NCBI RefSeq assembly: GCF_000429585.1
Contig: NZ_AUCD01000009.1
Span: 1 to 46,561 of the forward strand
Length of the DNA: 46,561 nucleotides
Origin: Atopococcus tabaci DSM 17538
GTDB lineage: Bacteria > Bacillota > Bacilli > Lactobacillales > Carnobacteriaceae_A
Direction of reading: 5' to 3'
In this document: positions 5,023 to 46,561 of the stretch, piece after piece
Position numbering within the stretch: the stretch's first letter is position 1
How the letters are laid out: every line of letters starts with the position of its first letter
The notes under the pieces: generated by a model
Databases searched by the model: none
Seen by the model: the letters and a program-made list of their open reading frames with translations, nothing else
What the model was told of the DNA's origin: nothing
Translations under genes and position numbers: made by a program

Positions 5023-5198
5023 TGTCTGCACAGTATCCCTTTTGCCCGCAACACGGCAAGCACACCTTGGAAGGATTTGGGCAATCCTCCCAGACAGTGA
5101 CATACTTATTCAGCATGCCCCCAACACATTTCTGCATTTCGGCGGCCAACCCTTTCGCTTTCGCTACTCTTGTTGGTCGCGGCCTCTACACCGTATCG
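4991..5198 (-). promoter_or_regulatory. Lysine riboswitch (L box) upstream of the YfcC-family transporter
   Basis: Read on the minus strand, the leader has the L-box landmarks in order: GTAGAGGCCGCGACC, AAGAGTAGC, GAAAGGG, GCCGCCGAAATGC, GCATGCTGAATAA, CACTGTC, and a final stem GGAGGATT/AATCCTTCC. Helix P1 can be drawn as CGATACGGTG with TGCCGTGTTG (5189-5198 and 5049-5058, using G-U pairs), giving a 150-nt aptamer. The expression platform holds the terminator at 4991-5022 and the competing pairing GCAAAAGG/CCTTTTGC. This is an OFF switch at the transcription level: lysine is expected to favour termination. Confidence 0.88.
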
Positions 5199-23587: not shown

Positions 23588-24808
23588 TTACTTTTCTTCA
23601 AAATCAAATGAATCGATGGAATAATCGGTTGCTTGAATATCTTCAATGGCCAAGAATTGATCTGTCAATTCCACAGGAATGGTGAAATAAAGCGGCATCG
23701 CCGTATTCGGTTCCAGCACTCCAAAAGATTGTTCACTCAGGTGGTATGATTTCTCGTCCAAGAAAACCGTACCGACATCTGAACTGAAAGAAATGTCCAT
23801 CTTAATGTTTTTCATGGCAACAGGGGTTCGATTCACGATGACAAAAACAGCTGAAAGGCCTTCCGGGTACTCCAAGTAAAGACCGCTGTTGTGAATCGCG
23901 ACATCTCCCTCAATACCCACTTCTTCCGTATTGTTGAGAAGCTGCTGCAATTGAGACAACGTTTCGTCGGTTTCAACGGTAAACCCTGCTTCAATATCGG
24001 ATTCCTGAGGAACCAACACAATCTCATGGGGAGCGTCTGTTTCAGATCCAGAAGTTACTGTGGTATCCCCTGTATCCGGTGCCGTGCCCCTGCCTCCACG
24101 CGTATTTGAAATATCTTGCGTTTCGCTGTTGATTTCTTGGTAAGTAAACGAATCGATGGACAAGGTTTCATTGCGTGTCTCTATAATGTTCAACAACACT
24201 TCTTCTTTGTCCGTGTCGACGGTGATGTATAGTGGCATGGCGGTATTCGGTTCCAATACTCCGAAACTGTCTTCCGGGAGCTGAACCGGCGTCCGGTCCA
24301 TCACCATTTCTCCGTCTGCTGACCCGAACGACAATTCAGACTCCACATTGGTCATCGCCATGTCCGTACGGTTGACAATCAAGAAAATGGCGTCTTTTGA
24401 TTCCGCGTTATCCAAATATAATCCCGTAAAATGAATCGCCACGTCTTCCTCAACGCCCAATTCGTTCTCATCCGCTTCCAGCACCAACTGCTCCAACATG
24501 CGGAGTGCTTCATCGTTTTCAACGGTCAACCCTGCTTCAATGTCCGATTTTTGAGGCACAAACAAGATTTGACTCGCCGTGTCGTCCTCTCCCTGCCCAT
24601 TGCTCGGCACATTCCTTCCGCTTGTGCCCGTTGCGGAACCAGAGTCTGTCTCCGAGGTGTCGGCAGAGGTTCCTTCTTCCGCTGAAGTATCTTCCACAAT
24701 GGTTGTGTCAACGGCAACCCCCGCATCCGTTGTGTCTTCTGTTGTTCCGCCGCCTGCACATCCTACGAGAAAAAAAGCTCCCAATAACCACCCAACCGCT
24801 CTTTTCAC
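23588..24808 (-). CDS. Lipoprotein with two tandem copies of an unrecognised domain
   Basis: A 406-residue predicted surface lipoprotein. I start at GTG 24808, nine bases after AAAGGAG, giving KRAVGWLLGAFFLVGC with lipobox LVGC and the lipid cysteine at residue 17. A Thr/Ser/Asp/Glu-rich linker follows to about residue 75. Two copies of a domain of about 145 residues come next (about 80-224 and 261-406). Both share VPQ-SDIEAG-TVE-DE-L, DVAIH--GLYL, a hydrophobic strand ending IVNRT--AM-N, SFGVLEPNTAMPLY and SIDSF. A second Thr/Gly-rich linker joins them. I do not recognise the domain; its strand pattern suggests a beta-sandwich. Function is unknown. The gene is monocistronic, with a possible TATAAT at 24847-24852. 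Confidence 0.85.
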   Translation of the reverse strand: MKRAVGWLLGAFFLVGCAGGGTTEDTTDAGVAVDTTIVEDTSAEEGTSADTSETDSGSATGTSGRNVPSNGQGEDDTASQILFVPQKSDIEAGLTVENDEALRMLEQLVLEADENELGVEEDVAIHFTGLYLDNAESKDAIFLIVNRTDMAMTNVESELSFGSADGEMVMDRTPVQLPEDSFGVLEPNTAMPLYITVDTDKEEVLLNIIETRNETLSIDSFTYQEINSETQDISNTRGGRGTAPDTGDTTVTSGSETDAPHEIVLVPQESDIEAGFTVETDETLSQLQQLLNNTEEVGIEGDVAIHNSGLYLEYPEGLSAVFVIVNRTPVAMKNIKMDISFSSDVGTVFLDEKSYHLSEQSFGVLEPNTAMPLYFTIPVELTDQFLAIEDIQATDYSIDSFDFEEK

Positions 24809-24991
24809 TGTGTCCCACTCCTTTTTTAAGCCCACTCACCTTTCTTATTATAAGTATACGAAATCCCACCTTTATCCACTAATAATCTGCCCGGAATACA
24901 TCCAAGTCAATGAATATTTATTATTTCGGTTGGATGCGCTCCCCGGTTCCTCTTGTGAGTCAGAACAAAAAATCGATTGAAATCGCTATAA

Positions 24992-25021: not shown

Positions 25022-25059
25022 GAACTTACGAATGAGTACGTGGAAAAGGAGTGGGATAT

Positions 25060-26139
25060 ATGGGTAGAGGAGGAGGCCGCGGCGGCGGTGGAGGCGGCTT
25101 CGGCGGAGGGGGCAGCTTCGGTGGCGGTGGCTTCCGTGGCGGTGGTTTCGGCGGCGGACGCGGGAGCGGCGGTCGAAGCAGCGGTGGCGGCCGTGGAGGC
25201 GGCAGTTTCGGTGGTGGTGGCGGCTTCGGAAGAGGCGGTGGCTCCAACCGACGCCCCGGAGGTTATCGTCCACGAACCGGCCCTATTTTCATAGGTGGCG
25301 GGCCCCGGTATTATGGACGTCGACGCAGGTACGGTCCGGGCGGGCCGTACGGAGGCGGCGGTGGCGGCTGCGGCTTTATGGGCTGCGGCAGTATTTTCTT
25401 CATCGTCCTCTTGTTTATGTTCTTATCCGGAATCTTTTCTGCTGGAGGCGGCGGAGGCAACATCACAGCTTCCACACAGGAACGAGAACCGTTGCCAGTC
25501 GGTGCTGTCAATGAAACGGAATATTATACAGATGAAATGAATCCGCCGTGGATCGGAAACCACACACAGATGGTCAGCGGCCTGGAGCATTTTTATGAAA
25601 AAACCGGTGTCCAGCCGCATGTTTATATCACCGACAACATCAATGGTTCATCCAATCCATCGCCGGAAGAAATCGAACAGTTTGCCCATCAAACGTATGA
25701 TGAGTTGTTCACCGACGAAGCCCATCTGTTGCTGGTGTTTTTCGAACCGCGGCCTTCCGTGTACACGACTTATTACGTGACGGGGTCGCAAGCCCGGAGC
25801 GTCATCGATGCCGAAGCGGGAGACATCTTATTGGATTATTTGGACAGGAATTACACCAACACCAGTTTGACCGATGAACAGTATTTCAGCAATTCATTCC
25901 GGGATGCGGCAGATCGGATCATGGAAGTCACCACTTCTCCATGGATTCCGGTATTGACCATCTTCGGAGTCGGGTTGATCCTGTATCTCTTGTACAGATG
26001 GTGGAAACAACGACAAGCCCGCAAAGAAGCAGAAGCCAAACGGACCGAAGAAATGCTCAATCGTCCGTTGGATACATTCGGCAGCTCTGAAGCCGAAGAA
26101 TTGTCCAAAAAATACGACAATGACCCTAATAATGATTAA
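25060..26139 (+). CDS. TPM-domain membrane protein with an N-terminal RGG-like Gly/Arg tract
   Basis: A 359-residue protein. Residues 1-110 are almost all Gly with Arg, Phe and Ser (repeats such as GGGGFRGGGFGGGRG), ending in YYGRRRRYGPGG. A membrane helix follows (about 111-127). The outside domain, about 155-290, resembles TPM (YgcG/Psb32) domains: FYEKTGVQPHVYITDN, DEAHLLLVFFEP and YFSNSFRDAADRIMEV. A second helix (about 295-313) and a charged cytosolic tail end the protein. YgcG-type proteins usually carry their Gly-rich stretch at the C-terminus; here it is at the N-terminus, probably in the cytosol. AAAGGAG eleven bases before ATG 25060 fixes the start. pspA follows 29 bp later, a pairing also seen in the Bacillus ydjFGHI group. 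Confidence 0.85.
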   Translation: MGRGGGRGGGGGGFGGGGSFGGGGFRGGGFGGGRGSGGRSSGGGRGGGSFGGGGGFGRGGGSNRRPGGYRPRTGPIFIGGGPRYYGRRRRYGPGGPYGGGGGGCGFMGCGSIFFIVLLFMFLSGIFSAGGGGGNITASTQEREPLPVGAVNETEYYTDEMNPPWIGNHTQMVSGLEHFYEKTGVQPHVYITDNINGSSNPSPEEIEQFAHQTYDELFTDEAHLLLVFFEPRPSVYTTYYVTGSQARSVIDAEAGDILLDYLDRNYTNTSLTDEQYFSNSFRDAADRIMEVTTSPWIPVLTIFGVGLILYLLYRWWKQRQARKEAEAKRTEEMLNRPLDTFGSSEAEELSKKYDNDPNND

Positions 26140-26168
26140 AAATTGAAAACCATTTAGGAGGATGCCAC

Positions 26169-26888
26169 ATGGCTATTTTAGACCGTTTTACCGATATCAT
26201 CAGTGCAAACGTCAACGCCCTCATCGACCGGATGGAAGATCCCGAAAAAATGATCGACCAGTACTTACGGGGCATGATGGATGATTTGGCAGAAGTCAAA
26301 CGCAACACTGCCGGTGTCATGGCGGAAGAAACCCGTGCCAAACGATTGGTGGACGAAAATGAAGCGGAAGTTATGAAATACACCAATTTTGCGAAAAAAG
26401 CTTTGGAAGCCGGAAACGAAGACGATGCACGTGTCTTCCTGGAGAAAAAACAAGAATTGGAAGACGTCGGAACTGGTTTGGCAAATGCGTATGCCAAAGC
26501 ACACGAAAACGCCACGAAGATGCGTCAAATGCACGACAAACTGGCTTCCGACATCGAGAAGCTTAGAAACCGCCGCGCGATGATCAAAGCCCAGATGTCT
26601 GTGGCAGATACGCAGGAAAAATTGAACGACGTCAGCAAATCCATCGGCAAAACGCAAGGCGCGATGGGCAACTTCCAACGTATGGAAGAAAAAGCCGCAC
26701 GCAGATTGGATGAAGCAGAAGCGATGGCCGAGTTGAACGAAGAACCGACTGACCCGGCTAAAGAGTTGGAACAAAAATACGCCAGCTCTTCCAGCTCCGC
26801 AGCGGTGGAAGACGAGTTGGCCCGCTTGAAAGAAGAGATGGGGCTTTCCTCTCCTGATGCCGACGACGCGGACGACGTTCCTGAATAA
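26169..26888 (+). CDS. pspA: PspA/IM30 (ESCRT-III-like) membrane-stress protein
   Basis: A 239-residue, almost entirely helical protein starting MAILDRFTDIISANVNALIDRMEDPEKMIDQY, the amphipathic helix 0 and the start of helix 1 typical of PspA/LiaH/Vipp1. Long coiled-coil segments run to about residue 190. The tail is acidic and Ser-rich (SSSSSAAVEDELARLKEEMG). PspA proteins assemble on the inner membrane face and preserve it under stress. AGGAGG precedes the ATG. The TPM membrane protein just upstream is the likely anchor or partner. Confidence 0.93.
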   Translation: MAILDRFTDIISANVNALIDRMEDPEKMIDQYLRGMMDDLAEVKRNTAGVMAEETRAKRLVDENEAEVMKYTNFAKKALEAGNEDDARVFLEKKQELEDVGTGLANAYAKAHENATKMRQMHDKLASDIEKLRNRRAMIKAQMSVADTQEKLNDVSKSIGKTQGAMGNFQRMEEKAARRLDEAEAMAELNEEPTDPAKELEQKYASSSSSAAVEDELARLKEEMGLSSPDADDADDVPE

Positions 26889-26899
26889 AAACGATAAAA

Positions 26900-26934
26900 A
26901 AGAGGGCGCTCAGACGAGCCGCCCTCTTTTCTTG
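26900..26934 (+). terminator. Terminator of the TPM-pspA operon
   Basis: GAGGGCG and CGCCCTC enclose an 11-nt loop, flanked by A-rich sequence and T4. Confidence 0.85.
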
Positions 26935-27237: not shown

Positions 27238-27555
27238 GTGGGCAAAAACATGTATTCAAGTGAAGTGAAATGGGCAGTAGTCAAAGCCAAACTTAGCGGC
27301 GACTTAACCAACAAAGAAATCATGGAAAAATACGGCATAAAGAATGTCTCTCAAATCAAAACATGGATGAAGTGGTACCGAACGAATCAACTCCATCGTT
27401 TTAACCAGCCGATCGGGAAACAGTATTCCTATGGATTCGGGCCGGAATCAGAAAGCGAAGAAGAAGGCAAAAATAGACAGCTGGAACAGTTACAGATGGA
27501 GAATGAGATCTTAAAAAAGTACTTGGAACTGAGCGAGGAGTTGAAAAAGAAGTAG
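27238..27555 (+). CDS. IS3-family transposase OrfA
   Basis: A 105-residue DNA-binding subunit: helix-turn-helix (AKLSGDLTNKEIMEKYGIKNVSQIKTWMKWY), then a C-terminal leucine-zipper helix. It starts at GTG 27238, nine bases after GGAGG. The end of the gene has an A-rich stretch (GAAAAAGAAG) where -1 frameshifting would normally fuse it to OrfB. Confidence 0.9.
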   Translation: MGKNMYSSEVKWAVVKAKLSGDLTNKEIMEKYGIKNVSQIKTWMKWYRTNQLHRFNQPIGKQYSYGFGPESESEEEGKNRQLEQLQMENEILKKYLELSEELKKK

Positions 27556-27563
27556 TCCACCAA

Positions 27564-28249
27564 TTGGTGGACCGGTTTAGAGAAAAGTATACGGTAACGG
27601 CTATTTTAGGTGCATTGGGTGTCGCCCGTTCGACGTATTACCGCTGGACGAAAGAACCGAAGAAGGTTTTGTCGAAAGTCGAATCAGCCATTACAGAACT
27701 ATGCCGCACACACAAATACCGTTATGGACACCGGAAGATCGCGAAACTCTTGAAGCGCAAATACAAAATGAAAAATGGGTGACCGACATTACGTATATTC
27801 AATACGGCCCGGAAACACTGTATCTTTCGACCATTATGGATTTGTATAATAACGAAATCGTCGCCTACAAGCTGTATCCGCACCAACGGACCGCTTTGGT
27901 AGTGGATACGCTAGAAGCAGCCTTGAAAGTGAGAGGGAATCCTAAAGGCGTCCTCATTCATTCAGACCAGGGGTCTGTGTATACTTCTTATGCATTTCAA
28001 CTTTTAGTAAAAGAAAACGACTTGGTGAGCAGTATGTCGAGAAGAGGCAATTGTTGGGATAACGCAGTGATCGAATCGTTTCATTCAACGATTAAATCAG
28101 AAGAGTTTCAGTATATTAAGTACCATTCGTTGTCCTCGCAGCAAGTCATCACTCGTGTGACAGACTACATGAAGTACTATAACCAGGAACGAATTCAAGA
28201 AAAATTAGGCTACTACTCCCCGATGGAATTCAGAGGAATAGCAGCCTAA
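27564..28249 (+). pseudogene. IS3-family transposase OrfB, internally deleted and frameshifted
   Basis: The first part (to 27782) encodes the HTH_21 region (RFREKYTVTAILGALGVARSTYYRW ... HRKIAKLLKRKYKMK) and then stops. The second part, in another frame from about 27768, encodes NEKWVTDITYIQYG through to the C-terminus with all three DDE residues (VTDITY, HSDQGS, AVIESF). Intact relatives have roughly 45-50 more residues between KYKMK and NEKWVTD. The junction lies in AAAATGAAAA, so a deletion between short direct repeats is likely. The transposase should be inactive, but the ends could be mobilised in trans. Confidence 0.9.
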
Positions 28250-45966: not shown

Positions 45967-46260
45967 TGTAGCCTTTTCATCGAAAGGAGGATTTTTAGCC
46001 CATAGATAAATCATAATTTTGGTATACGTTTTTCTCTTCTTACGAATGACGAACTAGATTCCTAAAGATCCCATGATACGTATTATATGTTTAAAAGACA
46101 GGAAAATACCCTCATTATCTAAAGTCGAATATGTAAGAAGGGTATTTTATGAGATTTCTTGATTGACCTAAACTAGAAAAGATATGTTCAAAGTTTTGAG
46201 ATATTAGTCCAGAAGGCGACAAAAGGTGAGAGTATAAAATATTTTGTGTAAATAGAAAAA
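45967..46260. other. Non-coding stretch between catalase and the IS256-type element
   Basis: No supported gene. An inverted repeat AAAATACCCT/AGGGTATTTT lies at 46103-46148 with a 26-nt loop; it could be an old terminator or an element end. Confidence 0.4.
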
Positions 46261-46561
46261 AGGAAGTCCCTTCTGTAGAATAAAGTTACCACACCCATTC
46301 ACAGAAAAGAGGACTTCCCTATGAACGATTTTACTACAGAACTCCTGCAGACTCTAGCCACCAAAGGCGATTTGAACGAATTATTCCGCTCCCATCTGGA
46401 GCTGGCCGTGAACACGCTACTGCGGACGGAGCTGACGGCCTTCCTGGATTACGAGAAGTACGACCGGATTGGGTTCCACTCCGGCAATTCCCGTAATGGC
46501 ACCTATGACCGGACGGTCAAGACCGAGTACGGGGAGCTCCACCTCGAAATCCCGCGCGACC
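46261..46561 (+). mobile_element. IS256-type (Mutator-like) insertion sequence, left part
   Basis: The left end is near 46261 (AGGAAGTCCCTTCTGTAG), followed by the transposase start. A hairpin in the leader pairs GGAAGTCC (46262-46269) and TTCTGT (46271-46276) with ACAGAA (46301-46306) and GGACTTCC (46311-46318). The element continues beyond the window. Confidence 0.75.
46321..46561 (+). CDS. IS256-family transposase, N-terminal part (cut by window edge)
   Basis: The first 80 residues are present: MNDFTTELLQTLATKGDLNELF, then ELTAFLDYEKYDR, GFHSGNSRNGTYDRTVKTEYGELHLEIPRD, the conserved N-terminal block of IS256/Mutator transposases. The catalytic DDE part is outside the window. AAGAGG precedes the ATG but lies inside the leader hairpin. 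Confidence 0.93.
   Translation, partial: MNDFTTELLQTLATKGDLNELFRSHLELAVNTLLRTELTAFLDYEKYDRIGFHSGNSRNGTYDRTVKTEYGELHLEIPRD

Follow-up and report, generated by a model that had tools for sequence, protein, structure and literature searches.

The TPM-domain membrane protein and the PspA protein encoded side by side in Atopococcus tabaci DSM 17538 probably form a compact two-gene module, in which the TPM protein would, like YdjH in Bacillus subtilis, be a receptor that anchors PspA, most likely through its C-terminal tail, and in which the arginine- and glycine-rich N-terminal head would have a separate role that is independent of PspA. In the arrangement that we propose, the receptor would be built of a cytosolic disordered Arg/Gly head, a first membrane helix, a TPM domain on the outside, a second membrane helix and a cytosolic tail. 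It would hold PspA at the membrane, which is the job of YdjH in B. subtilis. For the tail, the docking site may be the place at which the alpha4-alpha5 segment of PspA itself packs on a neighbour; for the outside TPM domain, a role in sensing or serving an envelope complex is possible; and the head may, for example, bind anionic lipid or nucleic acid, or cluster the receptor.

Anatomy of the TPM-pspA pair

The TPM protein (359 aa) is encoded at positions 25060..26139 (+) of the window, by which we mean the whole 46,561-nucleotide stretch of DNA that was analysed; its assignment draws on the open reading frame, conservation in relatives, a PF04536 match, an AlphaFold model and a fold search. 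The ATG at 25060 is likely the start of this ORF, lying 8 bases after a Shine-Dalgarno-like AAGGAG (25046..25051, +) that was read directly from the sequence. The gene that starts 29 bases after the ORF, on the same strand, is pspA (26169..26888, +; 239 aa), as the original prediction had stated: its product belongs to the PspA/IM30 family according to PF04012 (PspA_IM30, E 9e-43) and was the single match to this model in the genome. As in Psp systems, a PspA/IM30 protein is thus encoded together with a membrane protein. After pspA, a likely intrinsic terminator (GAGGGCG...CGCCCTC, then TTTTCTT; 26902..26933, +) was read from the sequence by eye; the consensus terminator scan did not list it.

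The comparison covered 80 named relatives from Firmicutes and Coriobacteria (Alkalibacterium, Desemzia, Trichococcus, Amphibacillus, Facklamia, many Clostridia, and Coriobacteria). An adjacent pspA on the same strand was found in 74 of them, downstream in 70 and upstream in 4. The six without it were L039, which is situated at a contig end, L048 and L053, which are the second paralogues of two Amphibacillus species, and L088-L090 from Atopostipes and Marinilactibacillus. Judged from this comparison of sequences, the TPM protein and pspA are an old two-gene unit.

In the AlphaFold model, a helix at residues 110-126, a well-predicted domain and a helix at residues 295-334 are followed by two short helices, 337-342 and 344-353. 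The hydropathy in relatives also marks the first helix (25387..25437, +) and the long one (25942..26061, +) as membrane helices, the second of which is predicted to run on into the cytosol; the single membrane helix assumed originally thus had to be replaced by two, about 110-126 and within 295-334. The TPM domain between them (residues about 151-291; 25510..25932, +) is a divergent member of PF04536, scoring 23.3 bits against a cut-off of 22.1 in the genome search and 20.7 bits, just below the cut-off, when the whole protein was submitted to hmmscan. Although the Pfam match is marginal, the predicted fold is clear. The best thirteen VIA-align rows (Z 9.8-12.1) were all TPM proteins or an actinobacterial supercomplex subunit of the same fold, the list being headed by BA41, BA42, cg2496, Psb32, TLP18.3 and actinobacterial bcc:aa3 supercomplex subunits, and the top Foldseek rows were likewise TPM-type, though with E about 0.004-0.03. 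The net charge was +16 for the head and -20 for the TPM domain region, and a positive stretch, WWKQRQARKEAEAKR, comes after helix 2. Because of this charge pattern, the positive-inside rule predicts that the head and the tail are cytosolic and that the TPM domain is outside, so that the Gly-rich part would be on the cytosolic side, where it had been placed from the beginning.

Other features were seen elsewhere in the window. The divergent upstream gene (23588-24835, -) likely encodes a lipoprotein whose two halves resemble each other (LFVPQKSDIEAG... / VLVPQESDIEAG...), and no Pfam family matched its product at a meaningful E-value. Just past the terminator-like hairpin of pspA, two ORFs at 27238-28249 (+) resemble an IS3-type transposase pair, as judged from the sequence. 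A lysine riboswitch (RF00168, E 1.2e-15) was detected at 5050-5196 (-), and a match to the Enterococcus sRNA Ref64 (RF02847, 48.7 bits with a gathering score of 44.3) at 46254-46321 (-); the nearest relatives of the genome carrying this match are, in the present comparison, Alkalibacterium.

Composition and conservation of the head

The N-terminal Gly/Arg/Phe tract comprises residues 1-108 (25060..25383, +), with 60 Gly, 16 Arg, 8 Phe, 5 Tyr, 6 Ser and 6 Pro and with no Lys, Asp or Glu. It is predicted to be disordered, most of it having a pLDDT below 50 in the AlphaFold model (57 sequences). Other reading frames of the tract are open as well. When the tract was compared with that of eight relatives, the difference was 9-17% at codon positions 1 and 2 and 53-69% at position 3, and all four GGN codons were used for Gly. 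Selection at the level of the protein settles the reading frame, and an artefact of DNA-level repeats was ruled out by the same codon analysis. Thus, the stretch of about 110 Gly/Arg/Phe residues that had been predicted is real.

A Gly/Arg-rich head was present in all of the 80 named relatives that have an intact N-terminus, with the exception of L052 and L054. Its wording is variable and its length ranges from 74 to 121 residues (5th-95th percentile), with about 10 aromatic residues per tract; positions M1, R3, G31, G32, R34 and R45 are invariant or nearly so. In these relatives the Arg/(Arg+Lys) ratio was 0.93 in the heads, as compared with 0.43 in the remaining protein and 0.36 in PspA, and in low-GC genomes the ratio in the head was still 0.90. 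This bias, together with the conservation of codon positions 1 and 2 where position 3 is free, indicates that selection acts on the head at the protein level and for arginine, and the values of 0.93 and 0.43 argue against a chance expansion. The original prediction had conceded that relatives might reveal a poorly conserved low-complexity expansion; we observed a conserved and Arg-selective head instead. Moreover, its suggestion that an RGG-like membrane protein is coupled to PspA was borne out across many genera by the pairing described above, the Gly-rich tract being conserved, Arg-selective and predicted to be disordered and cytosolic.

In the two exceptions, which are PspA-linked Amphibacillus paralogues, a Ser/Arg/Lys/His-rich stretch of 225-235 residues with 10-12% Gly replaces the head. 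This stretch includes a poly-His run, and the tail of both proteins is kept (L052:4227-5717 and L054:4197-5684). The Amphibacillus second paralogue without an adjacent pspA retains a Gly/Arg head. An apparent loss or shortening of the head in L081 was discarded since a contig end was seen to cut the gene, and the apparently short or missing heads of L058, L067 and L094 were discarded likewise, as these matches lie at contig starts.

Eukaryotic RGG/GAR proteins are Gly-rich and disordered, contain Arg rather than Lys and have scattered Phe and Tyr residues. The head is alike in all these respects, with repeated RGG interspersed with aromatic residues; however, it belongs to a membrane protein, and we do not claim homology.

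The tail and the presence of PspA

The tail that follows helix 2 is about 45 residues long (25999..26130, +) and was absent from the original prediction. It reads RWWKxRQ...RTEEMLNRPLDTFGSSEAEELSKKYDN, contains the motif LNxPLxxFGxxEAxxLxxKY and stays close to KNLEAKRTEEILNTPLETFGDSEAEDLAKKYED in nearly all members from Lactobacillales to Coriobacteria; no Pfam family was found for it. Sequence comparison revealed that this predicted cytosolic element tracks the presence of PspA. In the order to which the window belongs, PspA exceeded the cut-off in 43 of 395 genomes, all 43 of which also have the TPM protein, and there the matches to the TPM-protein model extend through the tail (end positions 218-221). 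In the 6 of the 395 genomes that have the protein without PspA, the matches stop at 203-213, before the tail. The sequences that were read (L157-L160, L015-L018, L021 and L022) lack the tail and retain the head. The phylum survey added 12 carriers, of which 11 have PspA and the tail; the remaining one, G564, has neither, and its head is short but present. Altogether, the tail was retained in 54 of the 54 surveyed genomes with both genes, including one unlinked pair in G616, where PspA is encoded on another contig, and all seven genomes found to have the protein without PspA have the head and lack the tail. The tail is also kept in the second Amphibacillus paralogues L048 and L053, which have no adjacent pspA. 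Since the tail-less members of the order are one clade, only two independent tail losses, this one and that of G564, can be counted, and we regard the co-occurrence of the tail with PspA as suggestive.

Some members deviate in this region. In L157-L160, which lack PspA, the C-termini have a short acidic stretch (DDLDF, DDLHF, LDDFDF) where the tail would be. In a relative from Clostridia of goat omasum (L081:132-1451), two TPM-like units stand in tandem with pspA next door, and the tail motif is doubled (FGETKTDTSELExKY twice). A tail-like match in Alkalibacterium was considered as a second PspA-binding protein and rejected; it sits in an AddA-like helicase and was taken as chance.

That the tail is lost along with PspA, and is maintained when the two genes lie apart, suggests that tail and PspA are physically linked. 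As the tail, unlike the head, is present or absent together with PspA, it is more likely than the head to be the anchor and, on sequence grounds, is most likely the PspA-linked part of the protein. According to the original idea, on which this bears, it is the head that brings PspA to damaged membrane or concentrates it there, either through condensation or by attaching to PspA or lipid; we now consider this rather unlikely. The idea has in its favour a composition that is conserved in almost every member whose N-terminus is intact, the marked preference for Arg over Lys even in low-GC genomes, the aromatic residues and the predicted disorder and cytosolic position. In addition, IM30, a relative of PspA, forms condensates by itself in vitro and puncta in vivo (PMC13351666), so the involvement of condensates is not far-fetched; by this analogy head-driven condensates are possible, and IM30 condensation needs no RGG partner. 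Against it, the head persists in the PspA-less genomes, all of which have lost the tail, whereas the PspA-adjacent paralogues of two Amphibacillus species have lost most of the glycine and kept the tail. Besides, it is common for TPM proteins that have no pspA in their neighbourhood to bear a Gly-rich end, probably on the cytosolic side. The survey of co-occurrence proposed originally therefore had a divided outcome: the head-bearing protein is paired with pspA in most relatives, but the head outlasts PspA. The head is likely a conserved, Arg-rich disordered element whose role is PspA-independent.

If the tail is the anchor, its resemblance to PspA itself may hint at the docking site. A segment of PspA, AKELEQKYA (residues 197-205; 26757..26783, +), forms a short predicted helix of modest confidence between alpha4 and alpha5 and weakly resembles the tail, the model of which also ends in a short helix. 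The pattern LN-x-x-P...EA-x-x-L-x-x-K-Y, common to the tail and PspA, was noticed after the fact, and it is general to PspA, including that of B. subtilis-type operons. In a first run, none of 200 shuffled profiles reached the tail-PspA score; in the larger run, 19 of 1500 column-shuffled profiles scored as high (16.75 for the tail-PspA profile, the shuffled mean being 10.4), and the claim that the tail is a strong PspA mimic was downgraded for this reason. In the PspA family, alpha5 of each subunit rests against the alpha1-3 hairpin of the adjacent one (PMC13351666), and mimicry by the tail would therefore yield a docking peptide. It is a doubtful conjecture that the tail imitates alpha4-alpha5 and docks on the hairpin, seeding or capping an ESCRT-III-like polymer, with the head clustering receptors on anionic lipid. 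If it were true, the receptor, anchored in the membrane, would nucleate a bacterial ESCRT-III coat on its own.

Relation to other PspA partners and TPM proteins

PspB/PspC, LiaI and similar membrane partners are small proteins by which a member of the PspA family is held or regulated. The window protein would resemble them as a membrane partner of such a protein, but their domains are unrelated, with no TPM domain and no Arg/Gly head. YgcG and stand-alone TPM proteins share with it the outside TPM domain, the membrane helix or helices and a Gly-rich end that is probably cytosolic. However, their Gly-rich end is C-terminal, they have no PspA-linked tail and there is usually no pspA nearby; in the short loci that we read, ordinary Bacilli TPM proteins are Gly-rich at the C-terminus, as in GGGGGSSGGGGASRGW, and in most cases have no pspA beside them, whereas the window protein ends after its last helix in the LNxPLxxFG...KY tail. 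The contrast drawn originally with ordinary TPM proteins consequently holds for the terminus that is Gly-rich, but the side of the membrane is probably the same, the cytosol.

The closest parallel is B. subtilis YdjH of the pspA-ydjGHI operon, also a TPM membrane protein with a low-complexity part that is encoded beside pspA. YdjH is a conserved PspA partner in B. subtilis-type operons, with a proposed chaperone-like role (Ravi et al. 2024, PMC11237479); it interacted with PspA in two-hybrid tests, and PspA foci in B. subtilis require YdjH along with YdjG and YdjI (PMC8581546). Induction by envelope stress is likewise known for the B. subtilis system (PMC8581546). In the B. subtilis-type operons L207 and L208, the Gly-rich part is C-terminal and the tail motif is absent, in contrast to the N-terminal head and the tail of the window protein. 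These operons also encode a zinc-ribbon YdjG-like and an SPFH YdjI-like protein, whereas the unit in the window has two genes. No Band_7/SPFH protein was found in the window genome with two models (Band_7 and Band_7_1), which implies that the YdjI adaptor is missing. The coupling of PspA to TPM proteins is thus already known, while the compact architecture and the correlation of the tail with PspA appear to be new; the only paper that we found on Gly-rich TPM-protein ends together with PspA was PMC11237479.

It is also conceivable, though unlikely, that the two proteins make no contact, the TPM domain helping an envelope or respiratory complex to be assembled or turned over while PspA patches the membrane, and that the operon reflects co-regulation only. 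The fold matches to Psb32, TLP18.3 and the actinobacterial bcc:aa3 subunit, which are photosystem II or respiratory-complex factors, and the chaperone-like role proposed for YdjH are in line with this, but the joint loss of tail and PspA, the retention of the tail where the genes are unlinked and the YdjH-PspA two-hybrid interaction are not. That the head is a low-complexity spacer without specific function is very unlikely, for although its length and wording vary and comparable Gly-rich ends occur widely among TPM proteins, the nearly invariant positions, the bias towards Arg and the codon-level selection on protein speak against it.

Two observations count against an anchoring tail: in B. 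subtilis-type operons YdjH is a PspA partner although the TPM protein there has no tail, and the head, too, occurs in those PspA-linked members whose N-terminus is intact, so that it may have a part in recruiting PspA. Nevertheless, anchoring of PspA by the tail of the TPM receptor is the reading that we prefer. PspA, which coats damaged bacterial membranes and repairs them, is related to ESCRT-III, and the module bears on how it is recruited to damaged membrane. Consisting of one receptor and PspA, in a genome that lacks an SPFH adaptor, this is the smallest version of a PspA module in the present comparison, and the comparison of genomes narrows the candidate PspA-linked part to one short tail, which makes a direct test simple.
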